Source of the DNA: Acidobacteriota bacterium
GTDB taxonomy: Bacteria; Acidobacteriota; UBA6911
Reading direction: 5' to 3'
NCBI GenBank assembly: GCA_016929335.1
Contig: JAFGIY010000216.1
Span: 1-64,000, forward strand
DNA length: 64,000 bases
Made by a program: the position numbers and the translations under genes
Notes under the pieces: model-generated
Database searches by the model: none
What the model was told of the DNA's origin: nothing
What the model saw: only the letters and a program-made list of their open reading frames with translations
Shown here: in pieces, positions 14,196 to 31,396 of the stretch
Numbering within the stretch: position 1 is the stretch's first letter
Layout: the number at the start of each line of letters is the position of its first letter

Positions 14196-14234
14196 GAAGA
14201 GTCACGAAACGCCAAAAAACTTATAAACTTTTTT
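14196..14234 (-). promoter_or_regulatory. Shared 39-bp element, copy 1 (upstream of type IV secretion operon)
   Basis: This 39-base sequence is repeated without a mismatch, in inverted orientation, at 29252-29290. In both places it points the same way relative to the genes it precedes: here the secretion operon on the minus strand, there the xis/int genes on the plus strand. It contains GTTTATAAG and, about 16 bases on, CGTGAC, and follows an A-rich tract in both places. A promoter with two recognition boxes or a common operator is the simplest reading. The divergent sigma gene begins 49 bases to the right. Confidence 0.65.
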
Positions 14235-14282
14235 CATTTTCTTGCTTTTTTTGTCAGCGGCTCCCCAAAATGGAGGATTTTT

Positions 14283-15131
14283 ATGAGGGCCAGCGAAAAG
14301 GAATGCATGTTGGCGGGAAGCGAATTTGAAGAACAGGCTTGCGAGCTGATTGAAGAGCTAAAGCCGTTATTGGTTGAACATGGCGTGGAAGCTGCTGCGT
14401 TATCGGAAGCTTGCAGGGAATCTTTCCTTGAAATGGCAAAAAATGACGCCGCGAATTCTTCGGAGGCTCTTCAGCCATTTTTTTTGGAACTGGTTTTGTG
14501 GAATCTCTTCGCCCGTGGGAGCTCACTTTGGATCAATTCCAGAACCAATGCAGGGAATACGGTCCCGCTGGAGATCATGACGATGGCTTATGTGTTATGG
14601 AAAGATGGATTGAGCCTGGCAGAGCATTACAATGTGGACTCGGCGGCGGCCGCAGAAATCATGGCGCTGGTTACTCACAAAGCCGCCGATAGGATGAGCA
14701 ATTATGATGAGGATCCTGAAAGCGAACCCGTTCGGGATATCCGCAAGTATATTTTTACTGCCTTCAGGTATGCAATCTACGTGATTGCCAAAAAACAATC
14801 CTCACCTCCAAGGGATTTTCTTGAGATGAATAGTCTGGGCAAGAATTGGGAATCAGGTTTAACCGGAATCGAGAAACAAATATTTTGTGAGGAGCTGTTG
14901 AAAGCCATGCCTCAGAAGGACCAGAGGATATTCATGGCCTACTACATCTCTGAATACAGTTGGAAGGAAACAGCGCAGAAGTTGGGGCTTACTGTGGGTG
15001 CAGCTCAAAGAAGTCTTAGCGATGCGATGATGAAAACGTTCGGGATACGCATGCAGGAACTGCGAAGGATAGGCTATCAGCAGGTGACTGAAATTGAGAG
15101 CTACTTGAAGAAGAGACAGAAGATTCATTAA
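14283..15131 (+). CDS. RNA polymerase sigma factor-like protein (ECF-like)
   Basis: A 282-residue protein. The C-terminal third contains a region-4 type helix-turn-helix: LKAMPQKDQRIFMAYYI, then YSWKETAQKLGLT and a recognition helix around AAQRSLSDAMM (about 205-255). This is the pattern of ECF/sigma-70 region 4. The N-terminal part is helical and longer than in typical ECF factors (about 170-200 residues), so region 2 is weak by eye. A zinc-finger membrane protein follows after 19 bases, as expected of an anti-sigma partner. The gene diverges from the type IV secretion operon and probably controls element genes. The ribosome site is GGAGG before the ATG. Confidence 0.7.
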   Translation: MRASEKECMLAGSEFEEQACELIEELKPLLVEHGVEAAALSEACRESFLEMAKNDAANSSEALQPFFLELVLWNLFARGSSLWINSRTNAGNTVPLEIMTMAYVLWKDGLSLAEHYNVDSAAAAEIMALVTHKAADRMSNYDEDPESEPVRDIRKYIFTAFRYAIYVIAKKQSSPPRDFLEMNSLGKNWESGLTGIEKQIFCEELLKAMPQKDQRIFMAYYISEYSWKETAQKLGLTVGAAQRSLSDAMMKTFGIRMQELRRIGYQQVTEIESYLKKRQKIH

Positions 15132-15150
15132 TACATAAGTTGAGAATTTC

Positions 15151-15906
15151 ATGTCGAAGAGCGAAGAAAAGCAGCAGGTTGAAATTCTGAAAAAAGCCTA
15201 TATGACCGTCCATCCCAATCCTGAACGCAAGGACTGTCCCGAACCCAAGGTACTTCGAGATGTTGCTTTTCACCGAAATATTGGCACCCAGGAACAGTTT
15301 GAAGCGATCATGGATCACCTCACGCAATGCTCTGCATGCGTGCGCGATCACATGGCATTTGTTGAAGAGTACAAGGAAGAGAAAAGGTGGAATCAACAAA
15401 TCATGCGAGCTTTACTGGGACTCGCGGCGGTTCTTGTGATTTCCTTGGCGATTTGGGCTGTGTGGCGCACTCAGCCCAAGCAAGAGTTAGCCATCCAGCC
15501 GCCGGAACCGAAACATCAGGAATCCGCCAATCCAGCTGCACCGGATACAAGCAATCATGAAAACATTCCTCCCCAAATCGCGCAGTTGGAATCAGTCACA
15601 ATTGAGATTCCTCCGAAATTGAGAGGCTCAGCCGAAAATGAGCATCCAATCATCCTTAGCCGGGGAAGGTTGAATATTGAGATTCGCATGCCGATCGGCA
15701 GCCCGGAGGGAAGATATAAATTGCGAATTTTGGACAATTCCGGGAAAGCGCATTCAGCGGTGGAGAGAACTGCCTCGAAAGTAAATGGAATTACCAGCGT
15801 TAGGTCCACTTTGGATACTTCAAATCTGCCACCAGGCGATTACAAATTCAGCATCCAGGAATCCGGTTTTGAGGAATGGACGGATTATCCGCTCCTAATT
15901 AACTAA
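15151..15906 (+). CDS. Membrane-bound zinc-finger anti-sigma factor-like protein
   Basis: A 251-residue protein whose N-terminal cytosolic part has the anti-sigma zinc-finger signature H-x3-C-x2-C (HLTQCSAC, about 53-60). One transmembrane helix (about 90-108) and a periplasmic, beta-rich C-terminal domain of about 140 residues follow. This is the build of ECF anti-sigma factors that hold the sigma factor until an envelope signal arrives. It starts 19 bases after the sigma-like gene, so both are co-expressed. The signal sensed by the outer domain is unknown. Confidence 0.72.
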   Translation: MSKSEEKQQVEILKKAYMTVHPNPERKDCPEPKVLRDVAFHRNIGTQEQFEAIMDHLTQCSACVRDHMAFVEEYKEEKRWNQQIMRALLGLAAVLVISLAIWAVWRTQPKQELAIQPPEPKHQESANPAAPDTSNHENIPPQIAQLESVTIEIPPKLRGSAENEHPIILSRGRLNIEIRMPIGSPEGRYKLRILDNSGKAHSAVERTASKVNGITSVRSTLDTSNLPPGDYKFSIQESGFEEWTDYPLLIN

Positions 15907-15971
15907 ATCCGTTCGATATCCTTTTGGCAGAATGAAAACTCAGTTTCCGGGCCCAACAAGTCACTTTCCGA

Positions 15972-16097
15972 TTACGCGACATAATTCGTCCAGTTTGCAG
16001 CATTGCAGCACAGTTTCTCATAAGCGTGTTTATAGTTCCTTACTCCACCAAGGCCCGGTTCTGAATTTGTATCGTCATTATTATTAGATTGTTGCGG
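15972..16097 (-). pseudogene. Probable C-terminal gene fragment (unidentified)
   Basis: The minus strand reads 41 open codons ending in TAA with protein-like composition (for example RNYKHAYEKLCCNAANWTNYV), bounded upstream by a stop and with no start. It looks like the tail of a decayed gene. I cannot name the family. It lies in a 750-base stretch without intact genes between the anti-sigma gene and the chimeric DUF4062 gene. Confidence 0.3.
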
Positions 16098-16252
16098 CTA
16101 TTCGGAGGGAGAAATTTGAAAAATGGTGGTGGGGCTGAATATCGGTAAGGGGAGCATAAAGTTTGGAGATAGCTGGTGCCGTTCTGAAATTTAAATCTAG
16201 CCACCACTCGCTATTCGGTTAGATTGGGTGTAGGAGGGTAGAAAGAGGGGGC

Positions 16253-16272
16253 GCACACCGTACGTGGTGTGC
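16253..16272. repeat. Perfect hairpin in gene-poor stretch
   Basis: GCACACC and GGTGTGC flank a six-base loop. There is no T-run after it on either strand, so it is not an ordinary terminator. The surrounding bases hold only gene fragments. Confidence 0.5.
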
Positions 16273-16429
16273 TCTATGGCACTTGGAATCATGGCATCCG
16301 ACTATTTACTGCCCTGGAATCTCGGGAGTTATCAAAATATTCCCTTATCTCTTCCCTATTTCAGTGCAGAAAGCGGAGCGATAAATAAAAATAGGGAGTA
16401 GAGGGCAGTAGCCGTTTCACTGCAACCTC

Positions 16430-16549
16430 CTACTTGGTCCAATTGCTAATCGCCCTCAAATACGGCTCAAAATCAGAAGCGATGCAGTCGATTGTTTTTG
16501 AATCAAGAGCCTTAGCCGTAGCCTTTTCGGGACCTTTCTCAGAGCATAT
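16430..16549 (-). pseudogene. Probable C-terminal gene fragment next to chimeric DUF4062 gene
   Basis: Thirty-nine open minus-strand codons end in TAG with protein-like composition (including IASDFEPYLRAISNW) and no start codon. It lies downstream of and on the same strand as the DUF4062 chimera. It could be the original tail of that gene, cut off when foreign sequence replaced its middle; this is only a guess from position. An overlapping plus-strand stretch (about 16550-16670) also looks protein-like. Confidence 0.3.
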
Positions 16550-16659
16550 CTACAAGACGAGAATTCTATCAGCCTGCCATAAATGTTAAATATCTTGGTG
16601 AAAAAGTGGAACGTGTTTTAACTAAATTTCCAGGCGATTCTGGATCTGCATGGATAATA

Positions 16660-18222
16660 TCAGGTCCTATTGACGACCGGCATCAGCGCGCCATAGGTGA
16701 AGAACTCAAAGTTGCTGATGAAGTACTCCCCATAAGCGTTTGTGAAGTTCGTGGTGATGAAGATATAACCATTGAACTCCGCAGGCGCTCCAGAAATGAC
16801 GCCGAGCAACTCGGATAACAGCACAACGTACGTTCGCCCTTGAGCGAGCGATCCGTCTGCCGCCAATCCGCTGCCGGGAGAGCCGGCCTGGGTCGTGTAG
16901 GTGAACGTGTCGCCTGTCTGCGGGAAGAAGTCGAACCTTATGGTACCGGCCTGACGAACCGCCTGGGTGAATCCCATGACCTGCGTGCCCGGATCCAACG
17001 TGGTGTTTGCAACAGTGATTCCGGTGTCATAGCCTACGCCCGTTGTTGCGTATGGAACCAGGAGGGACGTGCTGGCACCTGTAATCGAGAGGATCGTCAC
17101 CGCTCCGGTCTCGCACGCCGGGTCATCAAACGGGGCCATGTGGGCGCTCACTGTTACTGAACCGCCAGGAAGCGGAAAAGTGGCACCAGCTACCAAGCCG
17201 ACTGAGATGGGAACCACCAACGATTCCAGCTTCGTCGGATCGGAGTTCGTCGTCAGCCTGTAATAGACGGCTCCCGGCGTGGTGGCACCGGTAAGGGTTG
17301 CAGCGGCTGTCGCCAACGCGCCATTGGCGGCAGTAAGTGTGAAGAGCCCGCTGGAGTCGCTGACTGGGAAATTCAGGGTAACGTCGGCTGGAATCTTCGA
17401 CACTGTCAAGCGGATCATCTTGGAGATATTGGCATTGGTATCCCCTGTTCCGACAAATTTGCCGAAGGCATCCAGGAAATTTTCCTGCACGTTGACAGTA
17501 ACAGGAGCCTTTCGTCGGCTGACAGGCGCATTGGTGATCGCTCCAGTTACGGCATTGATCGACGCTGCGGCATTCACGGTGGGGGTACGGATAGCTTGGG
17601 CAACATCGAAGATCACATCGACGTTCTTGGCTGGCTTCTCTGGAGAGTACCCCCCTCCTTCTCGTTGACCACCAAACAGTTGCCGAGCCTTCCGCTTACC
17701 AGAAGCTCTCTGCACAAGCATATTTTGAAATAGGCCCGCCCACTGTTTTTTAAGAAAATCAATAATGTCATGCGATATCTTGAAGCTCTCCACGACAGAT
17801 AATGGAAGGACCTCCTCCAAAAAAGCAAAAATGCGAAGGTCGTTCACTGTTATTGGAATGAATCCCGCTACGTTTTTGTTAGCTGTGTAGGTGCGATATT
17901 CGGCTAAGACAGCGGTTTCGACGAAAACGTAGATCAATTTTCCCTGCTCATAAGCTATCCGCAACTCATTTTGAGAGATGGAGTGCTGGGCATCTTTGGA
18001 TTCGGTGCCAAATCTACCTCCCACGATGTTTACTAGAATGTCGCAGGCAGAAATCTCCTGATAGCAATCATGTTCGAGTGTATCCTCAGCCCCATACGCA
18101 ACGTGTCCTTTTTCAAAAAGTACCGGCTCATACCCGTGTTCTACGATGAATTCTTCCAAATCAGCACGAACTGTCTGCAAATCGTAATATGTGCTGCTAA
18201 TGAAAACTCTGGGTTTTGCCAT
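16660..18222 (-). CDS. Chimeric protein: N-terminal DUF4062 domain, C-terminal surface-protein-like region
   Basis: About 520 residues from the ATG at 18222. Residues 1-110 are a DUF4062 domain: RVFISSTYYDLQTVRADLEEF at the start, then ACDILVNIVGGRFG, then KLIYVFVE, a TIR-like fold known as the N-terminal part of STAND-type signalling and defence proteins. After a basic linker (about 175-200) the protein turns into Thr/Ala/Gly-rich beta-strand sequence without charged helices. It is like secreted repeat or surface proteins and ends in NGYIFITTNFTNAYG and ALMPVV. It has no signal peptide, so the second half is out of its normal setting. The gene may be a fusion created by recombination and may not function. 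Confidence 0.6.
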   Translation of the reverse strand: MAKPRVFISSTYYDLQTVRADLEEFIVEHGYEPVLFEKGHVAYGAEDTLEHDCYQEISACDILVNIVGGRFGTESKDAQHSISQNELRIAYEQGKLIYVFVETAVLAEYRTYTANKNVAGFIPITVNDLRIFAFLEEVLPLSVVESFKISHDIIDFLKKQWAGLFQNMLVQRASGKRKARQLFGGQREGGGYSPEKPAKNVDVIFDVAQAIRTPTVNAAASINAVTGAITNAPVSRRKAPVTVNVQENFLDAFGKFVGTGDTNANISKMIRLTVSKIPADVTLNFPVSDSSGLFTLTAANGALATAAATLTGATTPGAVYYRLTTNSDPTKLESLVVPISVGLVAGATFPLPGGSVTVSAHMAPFDDPACETGAVTILSITGASTSLLVPYATTGVGYDTGITVANTTLDPGTQVMGFTQAVRQAGTIRFDFFPQTGDTFTYTTQAGSPGSGLAADGSLAQGRTYVVLLSELLGVISGAPAEFNGYIFITTNFTNAYGEYFISNFEFFTYGALMPVVNRT

Positions 18223-18234
18223 AATCCTCACCAC

Positions 18235-18558
18235 TGAAAAGAGGCACTGTGTTCTAACTTTGAAATGTATGAAACTATGTTACTACTGTAACGTATGCGG
18301 AATTAAGAGTTTTTCGCTTTCAGTCCTCCATCAAGCAGGGAGGGGTGATCCACCTAGGCACTTTGTAATACTGTTGTCGGCAACAGGGGGCCATTTAATG
18401 CAGGAACAGATCGCACTTTTAATGTAGAATCACGGCGAACTGCTTTTTCATCTTGGACGACGGCGAATCCTTGTTGTGGATCGGTCAAAACCCGCATGCT
18501 TCATTTTAGTTGATGGTTTGCGCCTTTTGATGACTCTTCCAGTCGACGATATTCGGTC
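18235..18558. other. Intergenic stretch, nothing recognised
   Basis: About 320 bases between the chimeric gene's start and the lipoprotein gene's end. Short frames on both strands lack ribosome sites and protein-like sequence. No repeat or clear promoter was found beyond what is needed for the divergent minus-strand gene. Confidence 0.4.
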
Positions 18559-19305
18559 TTAATCGGCTTGAATAGTATCTTTCGGAAGGGTGGTTCCGTC
18601 AGAGAAAATTATTTTCTCTGGAACCCATACAATCTTCATATCTTTCAGGTCTGTATTTCTCATTTTTTTATCTTCATCATCAAATTGATTATATTTTGAC
18701 GTTCCACTCCACTCTGCTTTTGCTCCAGCTTTAATGGGATCTGAAATTTTGAGGCCAAGCCCCATTATTTTGTCACCGAAAAGATCCTGGAAAACGACAT
18801 GACCTTGAAATGCCCTGATATCCTTTGAGGAAGTATTTTGATAGACCATCCTATAGGTCAAATAGTCTTCATAACGGCCTGCCTGATAATTTGAGTCAAC
18901 AAACCCTTTGTCATACACTGCTAGCGTTATGGCTTTTCGTAACTCTGCAGCAATCGCATCTTCCTTTGCCTTAGCTTCAGCAGCAATTGCCTTAGCATTT
19001 TCTTCTGATTTCTTCTGTTCCTCGATCCACTGTTTTTGAAGGGCAATAATTTCCCCAATGCTTTTCCCAACTAGAGGGAGATTGTTCTTTCCGTTGTTTA
19101 GTCCCTTGAATCCCTCAGCCAGTTCGTACCGGACCATATAGGCACTCAGTAGTTGAGCCTCCTCAACAGTGAGGCCTCTTGCGTCTTTTATATCATTCAA
19201 AATCGTATCCTTGTTTTTCTCTGTAATTGTCATACTCTTGGGATTGGAGCATCCTTGGGACATCATGAGAAGAGCCATAAATAGGGTGCAGATTGGTGGC
19301 CTCAT
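18559..19305 (-). CDS. Lipoprotein with coiled-coil segment, unknown function
   Basis: About 248 residues from the ATG at 19305, which has a GGAGG ribosome site. A hydrophobic leader ends in a lipobox (SQGC), so the protein should be lipid-anchored. Residues about 75-125 are an Ala/Lys/Glu-rich coiled coil (AIAAEAKAKEDAIAAELRK). A beta-rich C-terminal domain with YRMVYQNTSSKDIRAFQG resembles domains that judge transport or envelope state, but no family is assigned. It is followed upstream by the secreted nuclease gene on the same strand. Confidence 0.6.
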   Translation of the reverse strand: MRPPICTLFMALLMMSQGCSNPKSMTITEKNKDTILNDIKDARGLTVEEAQLLSAYMVRYELAEGFKGLNNGKNNLPLVGKSIGEIIALQKQWIEEQKKSEENAKAIAAEAKAKEDAIAAELRKAITLAVYDKGFVDSNYQAGRYEDYLTYRMVYQNTSSKDIRAFQGHVVFQDLFGDKIMGLGLKISDPIKAGAKAEWSGTSKYNQFDDEDKKMRNTDLKDMKIVWVPEKIIFSDGTTLPKDTIQAD

Positions 19306-19365
19306 TGTTTCCTCCAATTGAGTCAATTGTTTCAATATATTTGATCATTGTGCCCACAAAAGCCG

Positions 19366-20028
19366 TTACGGCCTGCAAATTCCACACGGTCTGAATCCCG
19401 CCGCCAATGCCTCCTCCCTCGACCTTAGCTCCCGCGTGCAGTTCTTGCAGTTGTAGTTTCTACAGGACGGCGCGTGAAAGACTCTACTGTTGGTGTTGCC
19501 GTGGTATGTAATTTGGTCGGTCTCACCGGGCGCACCTGCGGACCCACTTGCAACCCTAGCTGGAATGGGGACTGGTTTCTCAACTGGGAGAATAGCAGTT
19601 AGGGAAGCCCACATTCCCACCCGATTTGCCTTCGCTTCTTCCTCTAAGGCAGCGAGCAGCCAATCGGAATTGTACTTTTTGTAATGAGTGCCAAGACCGG
19701 CCTTCAAGAGTTCCACGGAAACGTCCCGTCCATCCGCAAAAATCCTTGCGACTGTCCGCCCGTATTCATCCTTTTCCTTCTCAATAACAGTGACCGTTTT
19801 TCCGCTGATAAGGTTTGAGGTGAAGGCTTTTGCCTGTTCCGCGAATGGTTGATCCTTCTCAGGACAGTCAATGCCCTCCAAGCGGACCCGCATGGTATTT
19901 CCATTTCTGGAAACGTCAATCGTATCCCCGTCCAGAACGGCGAAGCACTTTCCGACAAAGATATGTGATGCTTCGATGGAGTTCAGGGAAAAGCTGAGGA
20001 ACAGCGGCAATATCGAAAACCAATTCAT
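19366..20028 (-). CDS. Secreted staphylococcal-nuclease-type protein with Ada-like zinc tail
   Basis: A 220-residue protein with a signal peptide (about 1-20). Residues 24-140 are an SNase/thermonuclease domain: VLDGDTIDV, MRVRLEGIDCPEKDQPF with catalytic Arg and acidic residue, and YGRTVARIF with the second catalytic Arg. It should cleave DNA or RNA using calcium in the periplasm or outside the cell. After a Pro/Ala/Gly linker, the last 40 residues hold CRNYNCKNC and CGIC, like the zinc-binding N-terminal domain of Ada. Such fusions are known for exported nucleases. It may degrade extracellular or incoming DNA; no immunity gene is evident. Confidence 0.85.
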   Translation of the reverse strand: MNWFSILPLFLSFSLNSIEASHIFVGKCFAVLDGDTIDVSRNGNTMRVRLEGIDCPEKDQPFAEQAKAFTSNLISGKTVTVIEKEKDEYGRTVARIFADGRDVSVELLKAGLGTHYKKYNSDWLLAALEEEAKANRVGMWASLTAILPVEKPVPIPARVASGSAGAPGETDQITYHGNTNSRVFHAPSCRNYNCKNCTRELRSREEALAAGFRPCGICRP

Positions 20029-20099
20029 GACAACCTCGGGCTAAAGATGGAATTACAGGCCTAGAAAAAGTGTGGCACGTCACGCTAGAATTTTGGTCG

Positions 20100-20153
20100 C
20101 CCCTTGTCATGACAAGGGGTGACAGGCGTGACTGTCATGGCTGTCATGCCTGT
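20100..20153. repeat. Twin TGAC-rich palindromes
   Basis: A perfect 20-base palindrome (CCCCTTGTCATGACAAGGGG, 20100-20119) is followed two bases later by a second hairpin with 11-base arms and one G-T pair (20122-20132 with 20143-20153). Both are built from iterated TGACAGGC/TGTCATG motifs. They lie between two minus-strand genes for secreted proteins and may end transcription or form an RNA structure. Confidence 0.6.
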
Positions 20154-20176
20154 TATCCGATTTCCTGACAGCATAC

Positions 20177-20590
20177 TTATTTTTTCTTAGAATACTTCCC
20201 AAGAATCCCACCTGGCCCATACCGCTGTTTTTCGGTTTCAATTTTCTTCGTTTTCGGTGAGTACAGAAGGAATCCAGAGCCGTCGGAGAACCGAATTTTT
20301 TCTCCAAGGCTGTCGTTATTGGGATAATAGCTGGCTAATGCTTGTAGCCCGTCGCTTGCTGGCGGAAAGAACTTGACGATCCGCTCAATTTCAGACCTCG
20401 TGATTTCCTCTGCGATCTGGGAAGAAACCTTCACGAAAAACGATAGCTGAAGAGTTGTCATGTTGGTTCCCTTAATCACGGGCCGAAGGTATTCAATTGC
20501 GTAGATGTGCTTCTTTGCTGATAGATAATAATCCTCCGCAAATCCCTGAACCGGGAGGCACAGGGCAATCAGAATCATCAGTTTTCGCAT
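20177..20590 (-). CDS. Small secreted protein, unknown function
   Basis: A 137-residue protein with a clear signal peptide (MRKLMILIALCLPVQGFA). The mature part starts with EDYYLSAKKH and has no recognised domain; it is mixed alpha/beta with a basic C-terminus. It belongs to a run of minus-strand genes for small exported proteins (20177-21721) and lies 51 bases after the next one upstream. I do not recognise it. Confidence 0.5.
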   Translation of the reverse strand: MRKLMILIALCLPVQGFAEDYYLSAKKHIYAIEYLRPVIKGTNMTTLQLSFFVKVSSQIAEEITRSEIERIVKFFPPASDGLQALASYYPNNDSLGEKIRFSDGSGFLLYSPKTKKIETEKQRYGPGGILGKYSKKK

Positions 20591-20641
20591 TTCTCCTCCT
20601 CACAGCTTTTGAATGAATGCTTCGAGATCGGTGTGATAACT

Positions 20642-21058
20642 CTATATCCGATGGCCGGGATCGGCCGAAGCTGGCGAGAGAGATTTGGGAGCCTTTTGTT
20701 TTTCAATTGCCTCCATATGCACCAGCGAAAATTTGTGCTTCTTTCCCTTTGAGTCCAGCACAATAAAATTATCCTTGTCCTGATAAAACTCAATCTCTCC
20801 ATTGACCGCCAGAACGATGAATTTTTCCCCCTTCTCATGCCACTCCATGCGGTGTTTTTCAGTCTCAACTAATACTATATTCCACGTGTCCCGAAGCGGA
20901 ATTCCTATAATTCCTGAACCTATCGGAGCAGCATAAACTCCACGATCCCTAGAGCCAATATCCTGAGAGATTACTTTTGCCTTCTGCATTACAGGTTTTT
21001 CTTTGGCAAGGGTAGGAATACAAACAAACAACAGCATCAATAGTGCTAGTCTTCGCAT
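20642..21058 (-). CDS. Small secreted protein, unknown function
   Basis: A 138-residue protein with signal peptide MRRLALLMLLFVCIPTLA. The mature domain is probably beta-rich, with KGEKFIVLAVNGEIEFYQ and LDSKGKKHKFSLVHME, and no catalytic motif. It has a GGAGGAATA ribosome site. Like its neighbour it is exported and of unknown role; the two may be co-transcribed. Confidence 0.5.
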   Translation of the reverse strand: MRRLALLMLLFVCIPTLAKEKPVMQKAKVISQDIGSRDRGVYAAPIGSGIIGIPLRDTWNIVLVETEKHRMEWHEKGEKFIVLAVNGEIEFYQDKDNFIVLDSKGKKHKFSLVHMEAIEKQKAPKSLSPASADPGHRI

Positions 21059-21155
21059 TATTCCTCCTGATATTCCAAATTAAATCCTGCTCATAAGTTC
21101 TTAACGAACAATTCAAGATCGGTACGTTTCACTTCCCCGTCACTTTCATAACCCA

Positions 21156-21192
21156 TGACACCTATGACGTCATACCTTTGTCAAATGTGTCA
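21156..21192. repeat. Nested TGAC-rich palindrome
   Basis: A perfect 12-base palindrome TATGACGTCATA (21163-21174) lies inside outer arms TGACAC (21156-21161) and GTGTCA (21187-21192). It uses the same TGAC/GTCA words as the palindromes at 20100-20153 and again sits in the gap between two small-protein genes. Confidence 0.55.
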
Positions 21193-21214
21193 CCCCTAGC
21201 GAATTGCAGAATCA

Positions 21215-21721
21215 TCACAATGCGCTTGGATCGAAATATTCCGCAAATGTAGCAGAGCCAGATGGTGTCTTGGCATAGATCCGCAACTTCTGAATCTTCG
21301 TGTTGAACGGATTAAATCTGGTGCCATCTTTTTTAGCAAATTCAAAGCCACCAACCTGTGTCATTTCTCCCGATTTCAATTTGGGCAGATATGCAAAATA
21401 TCCCTCCGTCCGCAAACCCCAGTGATTCAGCTCCAGTTCCACAGAATTCCAATCAAAGGCATCGTTGTTGGTAATAAAGAATGTTGCTCCCTCCCGGGTA
21501 ACAGTGGCTTTGAGATTAGAGGAATCCTGCGTGTTTTGAGACCTATTGGCCATGAAATAGCTGAATATGATGGCCAGCACGATCAGGCCCAAGCAGCCGA
21601 GCATGAACTTCCCTTTACTCCCGGTCTTCTTTGCAGTCAGCGGCGGCTGCGGAACAACGGAAGTGCCGCAATTGGGACAGAAATTTCCCACAATTTCAGT
21701 CCCGCATTTTGAGCAGAACAT
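21215..21721 (-). CDS. Zinc-ribbon membrane-anchored protein
   Basis: A 168-residue protein that opens with a zinc ribbon (MFCSKCG, then FCPNCG, residues 1-19) in the cytosol. A transmembrane helix (about 39-58) follows, then an extracytoplasmic beta-rich domain with ATVTREGATFFITNNDAFDW. Zinc-ribbon plus single-span proteins of this design are common and mostly uncharacterised. The AGGAGG ribosome site supports the start. It may join a membrane scaffold through its zinc ribbon. Confidence 0.65.
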   Translation of the reverse strand: MFCSKCGTEIVGNFCPNCGTSVVPQPPLTAKKTGSKGKFMLGCLGLIVLAIIFSYFMANRSQNTQDSSNLKATVTREGATFFITNNDAFDWNSVELELNHWGLRTEGYFAYLPKLKSGEMTQVGGFEFAKKDGTRFNPFNTKIQKLRIYAKTPSGSATFAEYFDPSAL

Positions 21722-21847
21722 TAGATCCTCCCTGTTGCTATATTGGCATAAAGAATTTACTCATTATAGCAGCTGTCAACAAAAAATCCTTGTGATCAAG
21801 TGATAACTTTCGCTGTAATATAAAGATTCGCCAAAAGAGGAGTATGG

Positions 21848-22174
21848 ATGACTTTCATATGGGTGGATGTCCGTGGTATTCGTTTTTCAAACGATCGCGA
21901 TCCGCGGACATGTCCCATCTGTCACTATGCCGTGGAGCCGATCGAAGAAACCTGGAAACTCGCTGAAGATGAGCATATCCTGGAGATCGCTTTCTGATGC
22001 CCGCGAAGAGAATGCGGCCACCTCTTCATTGCTCGCTATAGGGGCGAAATAGAGAAACCATTACGTCCAGGCTTCCCCGGCGGTGGGATTTTCCGCCTAT
22101 ACGAGTCAGTTCCAGCGACGACGCCCCTATTCCGGTTCCGACAGAAGTCGCAAGCACATTGCCTTCGTTTGTGA
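21848..22174 (+). pseudogene. Zinc-ribbon protein gene interrupted by an in-frame TGA
   Basis: From the ATG at 21848, the frame reads 49 codons with CPIC at about residues 25-28 and IEETWKLAEDEHILEIAF. It then meets TGA at 21995-21997 and continues in the same frame with CPRRECGHLFIARYRG and IFRLYES to a TGA at 22172-22174. The protein-like sequence on both sides, and the second Cys pair just after the stop, show one gene whose zinc ribbon (CxxC...CxxxxC) is split by a nonsense codon. A glutamine or similar residue would fit the interrupted position. Selenocysteine is less likely. Confidence 0.6.
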
Positions 22175-22921
22175 AAAAGAATCTATCTCCTTCCACCATC
22201 AATGTTCGCCTCACGGCTGTTCGCCGTCTTGCCTATGAAGCGTCAGATCCCGGGCTGCTGAGTCCGGAATTGGCGGCCGCCATTGCCAGAGTCAAAGGTG
22301 CCAAACGATTGCGCAGTCGGGTTGGCAATTGGCTGACAGCTGATCAAGGAAGCGCTCTTCTCCAAGGTTCACGATCGGAAACTCTGCGCGGCAAACGGGA
22401 TCATGCAATCCTGGCCGTGCTTCTCGGCTGCGGACTTCGTCGCGCGGAAACCGTCACAATTCGAATGGAAGATCTGCAACTTCGGGAAAAACACTGGGTT
22501 ATTGCTGATATGGTCGGAAAAGGCAGGCATGTCCGGACTGTGCCAATGCCTGCTTGGGTTAAGAAAGCTGTCGATGAATGGACCACTGCGGCTGGTATCT
22601 CTGAAGGAAATATCTTCCGCAGAATTGACAAAGATGGAAAAGTATGGGGGCCCGGGATTACCTCAAAATCAGTATGGCATGTGGTCAAGGCAGCTGCAAA
22701 GCGTGGTGGATTTCAACATCTTGCCCCTCATGATCTTCGCCGGACCCGCGCTCGCCTGTGTCATCTTGCCGGCGGCGAACTGGAACAGATTCAATTTTTA
22801 CTGGGGCATGTTTCTATCCAAACTACAGATATACCTGGGCCGTAAACAGAAACTCAGACACGCTGTGAATGATAACTTGGGATTGAATGGATTGCCCGAG
22901 GTTGCTTCAAGTCCTAATTAA
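22159..22921 (+). pseudogene. Tyrosine recombinase remnant, frameshifted at the catalytic tyrosine
   Basis: The frame from about 22159 encodes most of a tyrosine recombinase. It begins inside the core-binding domain (SPSTINVRLTAVRRLAYEA) and has the catalytic Arg in GCGLRRAETV, then HDLRRTRA and LLGHVSIQTTD. It stops at once with IPGP. In another frame the sequence continues YLGRKQKLRHAVND and stops at 22919-22921. Missing bases between TTD and the tyrosine (near 22830) therefore remove the nucleophile from the frame. About 40 N-terminal residues are also absent. It is a dead integrase, different from the intact one at 30052. Confidence 0.8.
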
Positions 22922-23129
22922 TAAATTGCTCTCTGGATCTCCTCTCGCCGTGCGACAATATGGCTGAATCGGAGGATTGTAAGGTTGTGTCGATTCCAAT
23001 GCCCAGTAGCGCATGAATGCACACTTCCTCGAACCGGACTTATTGGGATCATGACAAGAAACTGCTTGCCATTGAGCAAGTTCGGGAATTGAATGGCTAC
23101 TGCGATAGACTCGGATTAGGTTTGAGGTG

Positions 23130-23672
23130 ATGGGCCTTATGGTCGCACTTTTGATTGCGCTTTTTATGCAAACGAACCTTACACAGTGGAAGCAATGGCA
23201 ATGCGGGGGCTCTCCAGTCTCCGGACGATACTTCAATCATGCTGTTGGATTTTCTGTTGCAGCTCCTCCCGGCGTTCAGGGCCGACGAGGTCAATCAAGT
23301 GGACCTGAGCGAGGCGTAGCTTTTCCGCTTTCGCCAGATTGCAGTCGCGTTGTCGTGGTGTTTGGGGAACCAAATGCCTTGGAATGGCCCACTCCTGCAG
23401 CTGCAATCGACTGGACCGTTCAGGCCAGTACCCAAGGCGACCCACAAGCCGAAATCAAGCGATATGCAAGCATGATGGGCAAACTCAAAGCAGCCGGGGC
23501 AACCATCCGACATAAAGCGACGCCCGATATCGAGGATGTCGTTATTGTATTCCGTCCCGATGGCGGACTTGTTTACCAGGCATGGCTGGTTTCTGTCCCG
23601 AACCTGCATAATCAAGACTCCAAAGCTTTTGCAAAAATCCTTGGTGAGTTTCGGATTGAAGATTGGCGGTGA
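23130..23672 (+). CDS. Exported protein of unknown function
   Basis: About 180 residues. The N-terminus (MVALLIALFMQTNLTQW) is a short signal or anchor, and GAGGTG lies before the start codons at 23130 and 23139. The mature protein contains NHAVGFSVAAPPGVQG, VVVVFGEPNALEWPT and DVVIVFRPDGGLVYQAWLVSV, a mixed alpha/beta fold I cannot name. The repeated pattern of a sensed value and its error is seen in some bacterial secreted PsbP-like proteins, but the resemblance is weak. Confidence 0.5.
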   Translation: MGLMVALLIALFMQTNLTQWKQWQCGGSPVSGRYFNHAVGFSVAAPPGVQGRRGQSSGPERGVAFPLSPDCSRVVVVFGEPNALEWPTPAAAIDWTVQASTQGDPQAEIKRYASMMGKLKAAGATIRHKATPDIEDVVIVFRPDGGLVYQAWLVSVPNLHNQDSKAFAKILGEFRIEDWR

Positions 23673-23738
23673 CTACGGAAGGTTAGTTCCTCGATCCGGA
23701 CTTCGCAGGAGTAATCTCAAAAAAGCGGCATGCTTTAA

Positions 23739-24047
23739 TCAAATATTGAAACGGTCTTGTTCCCTACGCATTTGTTTTAGCCGCCGACGATCATACAACC
23801 TATATGAAGCTCTTCCGAATTCGCGTGTGATTTGAATCGGTCCTAAAGCCGGCTCAGTCTTAACCTTGAAAATATATGGGAAATGACAAGGCCTGCAATA
23901 AGCCAGTAGCTGAATCCCAACACTATGAACGCTGTGGAAAACTACGCTTGGGAGCCTCTCACCACACTTTGTGCAGTAAAATTCAAAATAGTCAGTAGTC
24001 AACTCTCCTTTAAGCCCCTGTGCAACTCCTATATCTGATTTATCCAT
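23739..24047 (-). CDS. Small zinc-binding protein, unknown function
   Basis: A 102-residue protein with two Cys pairs, YCTKCGERLP (about 24-33) and YCRPCH (about 50-55), that probably bind one zinc. A basic helical C-terminus follows (RRRLKQMRREQDR). The start has a GGAG ribosome site nine bases upstream. It may bind nucleic acid, but no known family is recognised. It is convergent with the preceding plus-strand gene. Confidence 0.5.
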   Translation of the reverse strand: MDKSDIGVAQGLKGELTTDYFEFYCTKCGERLPSVVFHSVHSVGIQLLAYCRPCHFPYIFKVKTEPALGPIQITREFGRASYRLYDRRRLKQMRREQDRFNI

Positions 24048-24181
24048 AGGTTACTCCATGGCATTATCTTTTCTCATTGGCTTTCTATTACAGCGCCGCA
24101 ATATATCATAAAGGGCTTTGAGACGCTTTCTCACCATTACTAGATTGTGATAGGCTGGTAGTAAATTAGGAGCCCTAAATA

Positions 24182-25615
24182 ATGAAAATAAGCACATTCC
24201 TTGGCCGTTTCTTCCATTCCACGAATCCCAATTACGCTGCAGTTTGTGGTCAGATTCATGATTCGGTATGCGATGGAGAATTGCAAAAGGTCAAGACGCT
24301 GCTTAAGGATAATCCTTACATAATTACCAACAAGAACGACAAAGGCCAGACGCCTTTGTACGTGGCAACAGTTGCTGGCAAAAACGACGTGATGGAATTG
24401 CTTCTGACCCACAAGGCTGATGCCAATGTCAAATCCAACGATGGATATACGCCTTTATACGCAGCAGCGGTTGCTGGGCGCAAGGATTTGGCGGAATTAC
24501 TGCTGGCATATAAAGCTGAGGTCAATACAAAGGACAATCACGCTATGACTCCCTTGCACTTTGCCGCACTTATGGGCAAAAACGATGTAGCGGAATTGTT
24601 GCTAGCCCACGGAGCCGAAGTCAATGCCAAGGACAACGATGGCCAGACACCTTTGCACTTAGCGGCGGCGCAAGGGCATAGGGATGAAGTTGAATTGTTG
24701 TTAGCCTACGGAACCGAGATCAACGTCAAAGCCAAGCAAGGCAGGACTCCCTTGCACGCGGCGGCAGCTATGGGTAAAAACGACGTAGTTGAATTGCTGC
24801 TGGCCCACGGAGCCGAGGTCGATGCTAAGGACAATGATGGATATACGCCTTTGCAGTCGGCGGCGTATAAAGGCCACAAGACCGTAGTGGAATCGCTATT
24901 AGCCAATAATGCCGAGGTGAATGTAAAGGCAAGGAACGGCGGGACTCCCTTGCATTCGGCTTCGCTGGAGGGCCATGAGACCGTAGCGGAATTGCTGCTG
25001 GCCCATGGAGCCGAGGTCAATGCTAAGGATAACCATGGTTTTACATGTTTATACATGGCGGCTGGCGAAGGCCAAAAGGCCGTAGCAGAATTGCTACTGA
25101 TACACAAAGCTGACGTCAATGCTGAAGCCAACAACAGATCCATGCCTTTACACATAGCGGCTGGCGAAGGCCACAAGGCCATAGCAGAATTACTGCTGAT
25201 GCACAGGGCTGAGGTCAATGCAAAGGACAACACTGGCGCGATGCCTTTGTACATGGCGGGTTGGGAAGGTCATATGGATGTAGCGGAATTGCTACTAACC
25301 CACGGAGCCGAAGTCAATGCCAAGGACAACGATGGCAATACTTCTTTGCATGTTGCGGTGGCACAGGATCATAAGGACGTGGTGGAATTGCTGCTTGCCC
25401 ACAAGGCTGAGGTTAACGCTAAGAACAACAATGATGTGATGCCTTTGCATGTAGCGGCACGTAACGGCCACAAGGACGTAGCGGAATTCCTACTGTCCCA
25501 TGGCGCTGATGTCAATGCTAAGGATAGCAACGGCGCTACGCCTTTGCTTGCAGCGGCGCAGGCGGGCCACAAGGACATAGTGGAACTAATTCGCCAACAC
25601 GGCGTCCACAACTAA
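24182..25615 (+). CDS. Ankyrin-repeat protein (13 repeats)
   Basis: A 477-residue protein. After about 45 N-terminal residues without a signal peptide come thirteen 33-residue ankyrin repeats with the consensus G-x-TPLHxAAxxGHxxVxELLLxHGAEVNAKDN, ending three residues after the last one. Ankyrin stacks bind other proteins. Without a signal peptide it should be cytosolic, or secreted by a special system. The repeats are also 99-base DNA repeats with high identity, which suggests recent expansion. No enzymatic domain is attached. It could be a type IV secretion substrate, since ankyrin proteins are frequent effectors, but nothing in the sequence proves this. Confidence 0.88.
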   Translation: MKISTFLGRFFHSTNPNYAAVCGQIHDSVCDGELQKVKTLLKDNPYIITNKNDKGQTPLYVATVAGKNDVMELLLTHKADANVKSNDGYTPLYAAAVAGRKDLAELLLAYKAEVNTKDNHAMTPLHFAALMGKNDVAELLLAHGAEVNAKDNDGQTPLHLAAAQGHRDEVELLLAYGTEINVKAKQGRTPLHAAAAMGKNDVVELLLAHGAEVDAKDNDGYTPLQSAAYKGHKTVVESLLANNAEVNVKARNGGTPLHSASLEGHETVAELLLAHGAEVNAKDNHGFTCLYMAAGEGQKAVAELLLIHKADVNAEANNRSMPLHIAAGEGHKAIAELLLMHRAEVNAKDNTGAMPLYMAGWEGHMDVAELLLTHGAEVNAKDNDGNTSLHVAVAQDHKDVVELLLAHKAEVNAKNNNDVMPLHVAARNGHKDVAEFLLSHGADVNAKDSNGATPLLAAAQAGHKDIVELIRQHGVHN

Positions 25616-25842
25616 GCACAATACCATCAACGGGCCGCGCAAAGTAGCACCGAGGTCGCGATCATTCGGTCCCTCTTAATCCTGTATTAACAGCATCTTA
25701 TAACTGAACGCAATTGAAAGGAAAGGGTAGAGCCCGAGAAACACGCTTATGGGAAGTTGACTAATTACCTGCCACCTGGACGCATAACGCAAACCGGACG
25801 GTGAAAAGATCGGCATTTTGATCCCAATAATGATCTCCCTGC

Positions 25843-28494
25843 TTATTCTTCCGCGTCATTATCCCAAGGTTCAATAAAGAGTGAATCGGAGCTTTCGCCT
25901 ATCATGAGCATTCCCGCCCAATGCTTCGGCAATGCATTGCCTTTGTACTCTTTAATAAAATCAAGTTTTGCCTGGCGGAGAGCGGACCCCTTGTCCATTC
26001 CCTTTGCCAAATATGAATAGAAGCGGCTCATCAACTCGGCCGTAGAACGATCTTCCATCGGCCAGATGCTTGCCACAACAGAACGCGCTCCAGCCCACAA
26101 AAATGCTTTAACAAGATTGGATATCCCTTCCTGTTCCAATACCTTCCCCGTGGCGGTATCGCATGCCGACAGAACCACCAAATCGGTTTTCAGCCGAAGC
26201 CTACTGATTTCCCAAGCCTGAAAGATCCCGTCATCCATTTCATCAATCTGTGGCCCGAACAGCAGCGCAGACCTGTCCGGGAAATTGGGATCCGAAACGC
26301 CATGGACGGCAAAATGAAAGATATCGTAATCTTTCAGAAGAAGGGACTTGATTGCGGATTCACCTACGCCTTCTCCCAGCAAGGTCATTGTATCGGCATC
26401 ACTCTTCATTGATTCGGCGATTGATAAAATCTCCGCAAGTGATCCCTCCAATCTGGCAGATTGAGGCTGATTATTGAAATAGCTGGATCCGGATTCATTG
26501 GAAGTGGGATACCGTACATCCCCTACGCCCAGGAGCCTGCGCTTGCCTGTCCGAATCAGCGGGTTTTTCCTGAGAATATGCGTGATTGTTGCCGACGGAC
26601 TGTAATCAATCATATGTGATTCCAGCATAAACCTTCCCGAAGGCGTTGATATCGCTTCAAAGGGTAGCAGGTGCAGCAATCCATCCGGAATAATTGTAAT
26701 CCGAGGTTTGCTGCTCAAGCCCGGGATCGAGGCAAGCAATAAATTGTGGAGCTTTTGGGCGTATTGAGCACCGTCTCGTCCTTGCTGAATCTTATTTCGA
26801 TAGCCGGCAACTGCGTCCTCAATGACACGTTTGGAGGCAAGCATGATTCCGTGAACTCCGGATCGGCTGATGACAAGACAGGTTGATGAAGGTTCCCCCA
26901 ATACATACTCGAGGATGACTTCGGCCGGATATAAGCTTTTTTGAACCTCTGACAAAGGGATCGGTGAAAATATCTGCGCCGCGATATTATGCCGTCCTGC
27001 TTCCCTGCTGGATCCCAGATGCTGTTCCAAATCAAATATTTCGCTTTGAATTCGGCGGTACTCCTGCGGGGGGTTTTTTACCCACAACTTCGCTTGCAGA
27101 CGAGAGAGGGATTTTTCATATTTCTCAGAAGGATTTTCGCTATTTTCTCCTCCAGCCCATGTTGAATCTATCCGGCGTCCACGCAGCGTATCCGAAAGGC
27201 TCCTTCCGCGGGCCTGTTCCAGAATCATGAAGGCTTTCGCCGGATCGTTAAGTTTATGAAGGCAAAGCGAGAAGTAATCAGTGTACAGACTGCTCATCCT
27301 GGCGGTCATAGAGGCACGAGAATGGGCGCTCGTAAACTTCCGCAATTGTCCATTCAGGGATTGTAGCGCTTCGCTGTAGAGACGATCGGCTTCGATGAAA
27401 CGGCCCTGACCTGCCCGGATTGCTGCCTTATTCTGGAGATGGAGAATGGCCTCCATTGGATCTCCAATCTTCAGGCTTGACTGCAAACCAACGTCTGCAC
27501 AATTCAGTGATTTCCACAGCTCATTACGTATGCGATATATTTGTGAGAGGTCCAGAGAAATCCTGGAAACAAGCCGGTGATAGCCAATTTCAGAAGCCAA
27601 ATTCAATGCTTGTTTCAGCAGGATCACGGATTCGCTAATCCGACCATTCCTGTAATGGAAGCTTCCCCGTAGATATAGAGCCTGGGCATTGTTGGCGGCA
27701 GAGCCGGTAATGCTGGCCTGGCTTGCACAATATTCAACAAGAGGCACGGCTTCCTGAAGTCTATTGGATGTCAGAAGAATTATCGCCTTTTCAAAAAAGG
27801 TCGGGAAATAGGAGAGTGCTTGTTCCCGTTCTGCCAATTCGATGGCACGATCTAGGTGCCCGAGGGCATCATCACTTCTCCCCGCACTGTTATATAGATT
27901 GGCAATGGCAGTCCTGAATCGCAGTTCATTCATCGCATCGTCATTCTCAACCGTTCGCCAAAGGACCGCAGATACTTCGTCGGAGCCAATGGCTTCGCCA
28001 TCTAAAATCTTCAATATTCCAAGCTCCCCTTGAGCGCGGATTTCCAGATGACTGTCGCCGAGTTTCTGAGATAAGGCGAGAATTTCTTGCCATTCCCGGC
28101 GGCGTTGAGATGCGCTAAATGTGCCTGCGCAAAGGGCATCAACGTCAGACTCGACATCGGCTTTTATGAATAAGGCTTTGAGATATACTTCCGCATCTTT
28201 TCTTCCCGGGTAATTCGCAATCTCCTTTTTTAATGCATCATACATTTTTTGTGGATGATGCTCCTTGACCGAGGCTCGAATGCCCCCAAGTCGGGCAAGC
28301 CATGCTTGAGTAATATCACCAGCCACAAGAAGCTGTCTTTCGGCTTCTTTGTAGAGGGGCAATGCCTTCCCCCACTGAGAGCGTTCTGCAAGGAAATCGG
28401 CCTGCCGGAGCGCTTCGGTTGCCGTTTCCGATGGCCAGGACATTCGTGAACAGCCGATGAGCGCGAATAATAATAACCAATAGGTTGATTTCAT
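25843..28494 (-). CDS. TPR-CHAT lipoprotein (caspase-like protease domain)
   Basis: An 883-residue protein with a lipobox (LIGC, Cys15). Residues about 20-430 form tetratricopeptide repeats. The C-terminal third is a CHAT domain: FHFAVHG holds the catalytic His (about 725) and VVLSACDTATG the catalytic Cys (about 774), followed by the CHAT landmark FLWAGARSVVASIWPM. CHAT proteins are caspase/separase-like peptidases; in gasdermin and type III-E CRISPR systems they cut partners after activation. Here the lipid anchor puts the domain outside the cytoplasm. The gene starts nine bases after a small exported regulatory-like-domain protein, so the two are probably co-expressed. The substrate is unknown. 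Confidence 0.85.
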   Translation of the reverse strand: MKSTYWLLLFALIGCSRMSWPSETATEALRQADFLAERSQWGKALPLYKEAERQLLVAGDITQAWLARLGGIRASVKEHHPQKMYDALKKEIANYPGRKDAEVYLKALFIKADVESDVDALCAGTFSASQRRREWQEILALSQKLGDSHLEIRAQGELGILKILDGEAIGSDEVSAVLWRTVENDDAMNELRFRTAIANLYNSAGRSDDALGHLDRAIELAEREQALSYFPTFFEKAIILLTSNRLQEAVPLVEYCASQASITGSAANNAQALYLRGSFHYRNGRISESVILLKQALNLASEIGYHRLVSRISLDLSQIYRIRNELWKSLNCADVGLQSSLKIGDPMEAILHLQNKAAIRAGQGRFIEADRLYSEALQSLNGQLRKFTSAHSRASMTARMSSLYTDYFSLCLHKLNDPAKAFMILEQARGRSLSDTLRGRRIDSTWAGGENSENPSEKYEKSLSRLQAKLWVKNPPQEYRRIQSEIFDLEQHLGSSREAGRHNIAAQIFSPIPLSEVQKSLYPAEVILEYVLGEPSSTCLVISRSGVHGIMLASKRVIEDAVAGYRNKIQQGRDGAQYAQKLHNLLLASIPGLSSKPRITIIPDGLLHLLPFEAISTPSGRFMLESHMIDYSPSATITHILRKNPLIRTGKRRLLGVGDVRYPTSNESGSSYFNNQPQSARLEGSLAEILSIAESMKSDADTMTLLGEGVGESAIKSLLLKDYDIFHFAVHGVSDPNFPDRSALLFGPQIDEMDDGIFQAWEISRLRLKTDLVVLSACDTATGKVLEQEGISNLVKAFLWAGARSVVASIWPMEDRSTAELMSRFYSYLAKGMDKGSALRQAKLDFIKEYKGNALPKHWAGMLMIGESSDSLFIEPWDNDAEE

Positions 28495-28503
28495 ATTGGG
28501 CCG

Positions 28504-28980
28504 CTAAATTAGATATTTCAAAGCGGCCTGAAGCTGAAATGACACTCCGGCATATAGTCGATTGGTGCTGCTTTCCTGCCGGCGAAGAATGCCCAATAAG
28601 GGATTTGTAACGGATGCGCCGGCCTGGACTTCGATGATTTCCGAAATGGATGCAGGCCGCATTGTCACATCAAGAGAGCGGGTCTGACCATTATGTACCG
28701 TGATGTCTGTGATCCTCACATCGGCGAGGCTCGTTCGATGCGCCGTAATCTCATAAGTACCTACCGGGAGTAGGGCAACTGTGAAAAAACCTTCGGCGGA
28801 AGCACGGCAAGTACGCGTGATACCTATCCCAAGATGTTTGGCCATAATGAGCGTCTCAGGAAGAACACCGCCCGTTACATCACGGACAACACCCTGGATT
28901 ATTCCGGTATTGATTTTGGACTGAGCACAAATGGGGGAACAAAACCAAATAATCGCCGCGATAATCCTGCATGGCTTCAT
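28504..28980 (-). CDS. Exported carboxypeptidase-regulatory-like domain protein
   Basis: A 158-residue protein: signal peptide (MKPCRIIAAIIWFCSPICAQ), then one beta-sandwich domain from about 27 to 112 with IIQGVVRDVTGGVLPETLI, SAEGFFTVALLPVGTYEIT and QTRSLDVTMRPA. This is the CarboxypepD_reg-like domain found before TonB-dependent receptors of the Oar type. The receptor barrel is absent: the protein ends about 45 residues later with LQAALKYLI. It is either a stand-alone surface domain or a receptor cut short. It precedes the TPR-CHAT lipoprotein by nine bases and may act with it at the envelope. Confidence 0.7.
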   Translation of the reverse strand: MKPCRIIAAIIWFCSPICAQSKINTGIIQGVVRDVTGGVLPETLIMAKHLGIGITRTCRASAEGFFTVALLPVGTYEITAHRTSLADVRITDITVHNGQTRSLDVTMRPASISEIIEVQAGASVTNPLLGILRRQESSTNRLYAGVSFQLQAALKYLI

Positions 28981-29251
28981 AACTATTTTCTCCTTCTCCT
29001 GTCTCGGTATCGATGCGGCCCATATCCTGCAATTTGCCGTCCACCCCCATATGGCTAGGCTTAATTACATATATTGCAGCACTTAGAAGTATTTTATGGA
29101 TTTGCGGCTGTGATCACAAATGGCCATAAATAGTGGAAATTGATCAAAACAAATGACGTTTTGCGCTCACTTTTCTTGCTGTGCTCTGCACGTATGCAGA
29201 GAGATCATGGACGTGAGAAATTCCTAAAAGCTCAAAAAAATGCATTTTTGA
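28981..29251. other. Divergent intergenic region upstream of xis/int genes
   Basis: This region separates the minus-strand exported protein gene from the recombination genes. It contains a palindrome AAAAATGCATTTTT (29236-29249) just left of the shared 39-bp element. No gene is seen. It probably holds the promoter of the CHAT unit on the minus strand. Confidence 0.5.
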
Positions 29252-29290
29252 AAAAAAGTTTATAAGTTTTTTGGCGTTTCGTGACTCTTC
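29252..29290 (+). promoter_or_regulatory. Shared 39-bp element, copy 2 (upstream of xis/int)
   Basis: This is the exact inverted copy of 14196-14234. Read on the plus strand it starts in an A-tract, passes GTTTATAAG and ends with TTTCGTGACTCTTC. It stops 72 bases before the preferred start of the first excisionase-like gene. Identity over 39 bases at 15 kb distance, in the same orientation to transcription, points to a common promoter or operator for transfer and excision. Confidence 0.65.
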
Positions 29291-30017: not shown

Positions 30018-30051
30018 TCCTTTAATATCGCAGCCATAATTGGAGTGTGAC

Positions 30052-31254: not shown

Positions 31255-31396
31255 ATCGGTTTTATCTCAAACCGTTGCACAACCGTTGCACTTTCAATTT
31301 TGGGGCTGTTTTTTGCTCGAAAAAATCGTTAGGTTTTTCAAATCTGAAGTGGTTGGAAATTACTGATCTATTTAAAGTTGTTGGTGAGTGGATAAT

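Follow-up and report, generated by a model that had tools for sequence, protein, structure and literature searches.

The window analysed here, a stretch of 64,000 nucleotides (nt) from an Acidobacteriota genome (bases 1-64000 of contig C28), carries a probable integrative and conjugative element (ICE) with two copies of a 39-bp element. One copy lies upstream of an operon for a type IV secretion system (T4SS) and the other upstream of the genes for an excisionase (xis) and an integrase (int). As judged from sequence comparison, the 39-bp element is a lineage-specific regulatory site, probably a promoter, that is common to the transfer (tra) and excision operons. The right end of the ICE consists, in this order, of an HTH_17 xis, a second HTH_17 gene, a tyrosine integrase gene and tRNA-Met. 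As expected of an ICE, the integrase gene adjoins tRNA-Met, and a tRNA core of about 46 nt recurs on contig C58 of the same genome after the integrase there. Since the window begins at base 1 of the contig, the element is cut off at its left end, and its left attachment site was not found. The features are listed below; contig C257 of the same genome and genome G196 of the same genus are the relatives used for alignment.

6172..7500, minus strand: VirB10/TrbI-like protein (family scan)
7546..8295, minus strand: VirB9/CagX-like protein (family scan)
8292..8942, minus strand: VirB8-like protein (21.8 bits, below the cut-off of 23.2)
8956..9939, minus strand: VirB6/TrbL-like protein (family scan)
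10730..13246, minus strand: VirB4-type ATPase (CagE_TrbE_VirB, E 2.1e-12)
13628..13939, minus strand: small protein of the T4SS operon, 103 amino acids (aa) (DNA-level alignment with C257 and G196)
13985..14092, minus strand: small open reading frame (ORF) that opens the secretion operon and, as read in the sequence, codes for 35 aa (aligned with C257 and G196)
14196..14234, minus strand: copy 1 of the shared element, 5' of the T4SS operon, with the conserved bipartite core TAAGTTTT-N13-ACTCTT at 14197-14223
14283..15131, plus strand: divergent extracytoplasmic function (ECF)-like sigma factor, 282 aa (Sigma70_r4_2; TIGR02937), likely reader of the element
15151..15906, plus strand: putative membrane anti-sigma factor, 251 aa (C29, H56-x3-C60-x2-C63, hydrophobic segment 87-105)
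29252..29290, plus strand: copy 2 of the shared element, 5' of xis-int, with the core at 29263-29289
29363..29605, plus strand: excisionase-like HTH_17 protein, xis (the longest frame starts at 29291)
29679..30017, plus strand: second HTH_17 protein of the xis-int operon (family scan)
30040..31254, plus strand: tyrosine integrase (Phage_integrase, E 3.4e-21)
31397..31473, minus strand: tRNA-Met, of which about 46 nt of the 3' half (31396-31441) are the presumed attachment core

As claimed in the original prediction, which was made from the same DNA, the two copies are exact reverse complements, 100% complementary over 39 nt, with 15,017 nt between the arms. They form the longest exact inverted match of the whole window; the other inverted pairs listed for it (n=4) are imperfect, with 24-42 nt and 81-96% complementarity. 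Forty windows simulated with Markov models (order 1 and order 3, 20 each) had a longest exact inverted match of 15.35 nt on average and of 18 nt at most, which bears out the earlier view that an identity over 39 bases is very unlikely to arise by chance. A 28-nt core, searched with up to 3 mismatches, occurred at two places in the 6.51-Mb draft genome, both being the window copies.

Each copy was also correctly described as preceding an operon that reads away from it. Copy 1 points on the minus strand to the 35-aa ORF starting at 14092 and then to the T4SS genes, and copy 2 points on the plus strand to xis. Because conservation across four xis homologs begins at 29363 and GGGGGAG lies shortly 5' of this position, the xis start is more likely at 29363 than at 29291. 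With these starts, the gap from the end of the copy to the first gene is about 103 nt for copy 1 and about 72 nt for copy 2. The words GTTTATAAG and CGTGAC reported earlier are present in the copies, but the spacing of about 16 bases had to be corrected to 13 (29267-29279). A scan for a housekeeping-type promoter consensus gave no match at copy 1 or copy 2.

The gene beside copy 1 reads divergently from the T4SS operon, and its product is, by its profile matches, a divergent ECF-like sigma factor below the curated cut-off. Region 4 is clear (Pfam Sigma70_r4_2, E 1.9e-9), and the ECF superfamily model TIGR02937 covers residues 111-250 with 35.7 bits, below its cut-off of 42.9. In a profile search of the PDB, three distinct sequences were matched up to E 0.1, all of them sigma factors; two were matched in region 4 only, and one, an ECF sigma factor, over 156-256. 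The AlphaFold model is mostly helical and of low confidence, with a predicted local distance difference test score (pLDDT) of 49.3.

A co-oriented partner gene, which had not been mentioned before, directly follows the sigma gene. Its product had no Pfam or NCBIfam model above cut-off, and its cysteines and histidine (C29, H56-x3-C60-x2-C63) and hydrophobic segment are kept in all four aligned homologs, the window's included. This order of a Cys, His-x3-Cys-x2-Cys and then a hydrophobic segment is the layout of zinc-binding anti-sigma (ZAS) factors of the RsrA type. The protein is thus a putative membrane zinc anti-sigma factor that would bind and inhibit the sigma factor.

Sigma and anti-sigma-like genes were found beside tra in the window, in C257 and in G196. 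Close relatives of the window sigma factor occurred in 2 of 396 genomes of a phylum sample, namely the own genome and G196; six further matches in the sample were weak (E 3e-4 to 8e-4). The anti-sigma profile matched in 2 of 38 genomes of the class. Plasmid records gave no match to the window sigma factor, and their VirB4 matches, from 234 records, were distant only, all under 60% identity. Viral contigs contained no VirB4 relative and no exact match of the site that precedes xis on contigs C58 and C127, described below.

Relatives of the transfer region reveal how the site varies. C257 contains T4SS genes and homologs of VirB11, TrwC relaxase, VirD4 and ArdC on one strand. Compared with the window, VirB4 is 80% and the sigma factor 41% identical in C257, and 79% and 43% in G196. 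Both relatives have tra and sigma oriented as in the window, with the sigma gene divergent from tra. An alignment of the copies with related elements, proposed earlier as a check, had a mixed outcome, and the refuting finding named with it, relatives with both operons but without the shared sequence, is in part borne out: the 39-mer is absent from C257 and G196, and a related site, a version of their own, lies in the same place before tra. The sigma factors of C257 and G196 are 53% identical to each other and, in the same comparison, 40-42% to that of the window, and the sites that accompany them contain GGTAAGTTTT, where the window has TATAAGTTTT. Genome G298, with a partial VirB4 at a contig end, was left out of the comparisons. 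In C257 (L019:6090-6122) and G196 (L020:12084-12115) the site is a near-symmetric dyad, and the divergent sigma gene could therefore be read from the same site, which would amount to autoregulation.

Homologs of xis were found at four places in the own genome, on C28, C58, C127 and C202, with 42 invariant columns of 85 in the alignment, all within the first 60 residues. The xis genes of C58 and C127 have a window-type site upstream, with GGTAAG for TATAAG (38/43 to copy 1). The C202 xis site matches the C257 tra site at 37/43 but copy 1 only at 27/33, with gaps; when the C257 tra site was compared with C202, the xis site scored 100 and the next place at most 23. Thus the tra site of the window is nearer to the xis site of the window than to the tra site of C257, despite the close homology of the transfer proteins, which is to be expected if the sites diverged together with a trans-acting factor. 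Both window copies share changes that distinguish them from the C58 and C127 sites. The sequence CTTCTAATTG is common to copy 1 and the C58 and C127 xis sites and is not found in copy 2; recent duplication of copy 2 alone therefore does not explain copy 1.

A third window-type site was found on C166. In the element part of the window, neither the scan of 30 window proteins nor BLAST of the ORFs of this part against C257 revealed a virB11, relaxase or virD4. The own genome has three TrwC relaxases, on C104, C166 and C257. C166, chosen for its relaxase and compared over positions 15000-39549 of 39549, contains homologs of virB11, relaxase, virD4 and ArdC, and a site with the window-specific CGTGACTCTT (34/42) lies just before its virB11. 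There is no VirB4 on C166 (VirB4 occurs in the own genome only on C28 and C257), the ORFs of its compared part had no match to the T4SS proteins of the window, and the 20 kb compared of C104 contained no such site. Because C28 holds the T4SS half without virB11, relaxase and virD4, and C166 holds the complement together with a site of the same type, the simplest reading would be one element in two contigs, with two transfer operons and a site before each. On this sequence comparison, C166 is taken as part of the window element.

An independent case was found in Acidobacteria PMV_1.51, the nearest named relative, with VirB4 69% identical to the window. Its two loci, L012 and L013, both have protein matches to the C257 homolog of the 103-aa small protein. 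With C257 and G196 as the starting point, L013 was found to have sigma- and partner-like genes near tra, and L012 a partner-like gene; the window sigma factor as query had no match in this genome. Among seven xis profile hits, one intact xis (E 2.9e-34), followed by an integrase gene (Pfam E 3.4e-30) and tRNA-Ser, was used, the partial one on C420 was compared, and the other five were weaker. For the 615 nt before the intact xis, the top place lay before tra in both loci. For the 90 nt before it, which were picked after the 615-nt alignments and compared with every window on both strands, the single best place was again the region upstream of tra in the same orientation, with scores, best versus next, of 48 versus 27 in L012 (996 overlapping windows) and 37 versus 26 in L013 (724). 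When the 200 nt before xis were aligned with each of the two tra upstream regions, the observed score was reached by 0 and 1 of 1000 simulated pairs, and the sum of both scores in 0 of 1000 simulations. The shared sequence is not of the window type. The region upstream of the partial xis on C420 had no match to the tra regions.

The specificity of the site was examined with the pattern TAAGTTTT-N11-15-MCWCTT, which was written from the known sites. Across 15 genomes of the family it had 10 matches (own genome 8, G196 1, G250 1), and the reversed pattern had 9, one of them in the own genome. Seven of the eight matches in the own genome lie directly upstream of xis or transfer operons; since the pattern was fitted, only the scarcity of other matches in this genome is informative. 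At all eight xis or transfer sites (seven in the own genome and one in G196) the motif strand is the coding strand. Two matches among unrelated frames (C107:9359 and one on C203 of G250) were treated as chance, as was one of a looser pattern at the start of an unrelated ORF (C78:4454); all are included in the totals. The looser pattern, GGTAAGTTTTN{8,16}CTT, was uninformative: it matched 12 times in 7 of the 15 genomes, with three of these matches at xis or tra, and its reversed control matched 27 times.

Both operons are probably under one trans-acting factor: in three lineages (the window; C257/C202; PMV_1.51) the tra and xis operons have a site in common, with a different sequence in each lineage, and the third window-type site precedes the virB11-relaxase-virD4 operon of C166. 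The earlier claim that one regulator turns on excision and transfer together is supported to this extent, and the action of the regulator is a prediction. We infer that the factor reading the site is the neighbouring sigma factor, as also proposed before; its ECF-like character and the co-oriented anti-sigma-like partner speak for this role, and the step from the protein to the site is again predicted. With fair probability, the element is a promoter, or a promoter plus operator, placed before each operon required for transfer, read by the ECF-like sigma factor and checked by the anti-sigma-like protein.

In the proposed mechanism, the sites before the T4SS operon, xis-int and the virB11-relaxase-virD4 operon of C166 would serve as promoters. 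The sigma factor, encoded divergently at copy 1, would be kept inactive by the membrane anti-sigma-like protein, and on a presumed signal it would be freed, so that tra and xis-int would be transcribed together. Excision would thereby be coupled to conjugation, and each lineage would possess its own sigma factor and its own site sequence.

Several observations weigh against this sigma-promoter mechanism. The sigma factor is recognised by Pfam in region 4 only, stays under the TIGR02937 cut-off and has a model of low pLDDT. The 615-nt match of PMV_1.51 hardly stands out, with scores of 48 versus 46 in L012 and 37 versus 36 in L013. The tra site of G196 had no second copy within 3 mismatches in 25 nt and no second pattern match. 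No good xis was found in this genome; xis profile matches in G196 and G298 were weak, lay in open frames of 338, 307 and 474 aa and were not taken as xis, and a single xis protein as query gave weak matches in G122 and G258. The ICE of G196 may be incomplete, or the draft may miss the second site. The grouping of C257 with C202, and of C28 with C166, in one element each is based on sequence and not on linkage, and no exact overlap of contig ends was found for either pair. GGTAAG also occurs in the C58 and C127 xis sites, though no third sigma factor was found.

Among the alternatives, the element might be an operator bound by a dimeric regulator whose gene lies elsewhere, on the ICE or in the chromosome; such a regulator would bind the two half-sites and recruit the housekeeping polymerase as SetCD or BisDC do. 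The dyads GGTAAGT-N19-ACTTACC in C257 and GGTAAG-N20-CTTACC in G196 fit such a regulator as well as a sigma factor, the known master regulators of ICEs with this effect are activators, and a regulator could be missing from the incompletely assembled element. However, the dyad is reduced to AAG...CTT in the window copies, the half-sites of C257 and those of G196 differ in spacing by one base, and the regulator-like genes that recur near tra in the compared loci are the sigma gene and its partner. A dimeric regulator is considered unlikely, though worth keeping in mind.

Regulation of xis and tra by the HTH_17 excisionase, or by its HTH_17 neighbour, binding at both sites would fit the position of copy 2 directly before xis, and AlpA-like small HTH proteins control int in some elements. 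It is very improbable, as xis is strongly conserved among C28, C58, C127 and C202, yet sites of the window type have another sequence than those of the C257/C202 type. Hardly any weight is given to the repeat working as DNA, that is as a recombination site, an invertible segment or a trace of gene conversion: exact inverted copies 15 kb apart would suit it and their identity could reflect recent conversion, but tra and sigma have the same orientation in C257 and G196, other lineages hold paired but different sequences at the same places, and CTTCTAATTG links copy 1, not copy 2, to the xis sites of C58 and C127. Scarcely credible too is an RNA leader (an attenuator or a binding site) common to the start of both transcripts, which the location some 70-100 nt upstream of the first genes would allow, but no Rfam match at gathering score besides the tRNA was found in the window, a possible C257 stem GGUAAGU/ACUUACC is not conserved in window-type sites, and the A-rich tracts upstream fit a promoter.

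Coupling of tra and excision through a shared site is already known, as the examples of SetCD, AcaCD and ICEclc demonstrate, and the original suggestion that no ICE with this exact arrangement has been described is not supported in that form: SetCD in SXT/R391 and BisDC in ICEclc tie tra and int/xis promoters together in the same manner. In SXT/R391, SetCD binds upstream of xis and of many tra promoters, and on mobilisable genomic islands upstream of rdfM (PMC4344509), and AcaCD of IncA/C plasmids, an FlhDC-family activator, binds the SGI1 xis promoter (PMC4605294). In both cases, as in the mechanism proposed here, one element-encoded factor has sites before xis and several tra operons, and islands elsewhere mimic these sites. 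A shared site before xis and tra operons was likewise found in the window, in C257/C202 and in PMV_1.51, and not for G196. In contrast to these activators, the candidate of the window is an ECF-like sigma factor with a membrane anti-sigma, and unlike in the SetCD regulon, xis and int lie in one direction. No match to FlhC or FlhD was found among the 30 window proteins scanned, which come from an element incomplete in the assembly. In ICEclc, 8 of 9 bimodal promoters share a motif, with traI and intB13 among the downstream promoters (PMC9286271), and control involves the host RpoS (PMC3395598). The common promoter motif at transfer and integrase genes resembles this regulon (BisDC, InrR, RpoS), whereas the candidate of the window is an element-encoded ECF-like sigma factor instead of BisDC and the host RpoS.

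The gene arrangement resembles known ECF sigma/ZAS pairs, in which the sigma gene is followed by a gene with the Cys, His-x3-Cys-x2-Cys and hydrophobic segment. Here, unlike in the known pairs, it lies on an integrating conjugative element, its apparent targets are transfer and excision operons, and its sequence is divergent. In the literature searched, which was covered in part and in which sigma-like genes of other conjugative elements, some of which may have been described, were not searched individually, no report was found of an ICE-encoded ECF-like sigma/anti-sigma pair in this role. An ECF system affecting T4SS expression has been reported for Brucella, not in an ICE.

How excision and conjugation are brought about together in one cell has been worked out in detail for a few elements, and the window offers a compact case in which a candidate sigma/anti-sigma switch and two or three targets are readable from the sequence. 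The three site types and the diverging sigma factors constitute a natural test of sigma-promoter co-evolution, and the membrane anti-sigma suggests that transfer might answer an envelope signal. The site may also serve as a sequence tag for the pieces of one ICE, and for possible satellite islands, in fragmented genomes. The own genome has four xis sites and two sigma, two partner and two VirB4 genes of this kind, and no sigma factor or VirB4 of this kind belonging to the C58 and C127 elements was found in the assembly. These elements may have lost the ICE switch or may borrow it, or their own switch may be missing from the draft. Rather speculatively, there might be an ICE family, probably of Acidobacteriota, in which a sigma factor and a membrane anti-sigma, both encoded by the element, act as a switch for joint excision and transfer, each lineage with a private sigma-promoter code; at least two satellite islands (C58 and C127) would then excise once the resident ICE is switched on.

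On C58, the tRNA-Met core lies between the integrase gene and a ParA gene (L043:3373-3418). The xis-int genes and the core are followed by the ParA gene, which may mark where another element begins on its left side; this would correspond to a tandem array or a captured circle junction. On C127, a prophage with terminase, portal, head and tail genes stands at tRNA-Thr in tandem with an island (L044:8196 to L067:1223), and the xis of this adjoining island carries the window-type site. That the site and xis are prophage-borne was rejected: xis-int lies to the left of a 46-bp direct repeat (8196-8241 and 55178-55223, the second at tRNA-Thr) and belongs to a separate element, and the prophage genes lie between the repeats, as does a further integrase gene recognised by Pfam (53980-55176).

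Near the cut left end of the window, 3' of the T4SS genes and where C257 has virB11, a protein of the Eco57I/N6-methylase type is encoded (1068-4349). A CHAT-TPR protein and a CarboxypepD/outer-membrane protein adjoin xis in C28 (25843-28980) and C202 (L045:4226-9856), and part of the latter is also found beside the C58 xis. Distant homologs of the two (33% and 26%) lie beside tra in L012:1340-8657, and the genes form a conserved cargo pair, of which the outer-membrane partner has 158 aa in the window versus 988 aa in C202. Further cargo of the element is an ankyrin-repeat protein with DNA repeats at 99-bp spacing (24182-25615). Outside the element, at 43532-43956, a repeat array with 85-bp spacing was observed, three of its four copies being 92-100% alike.

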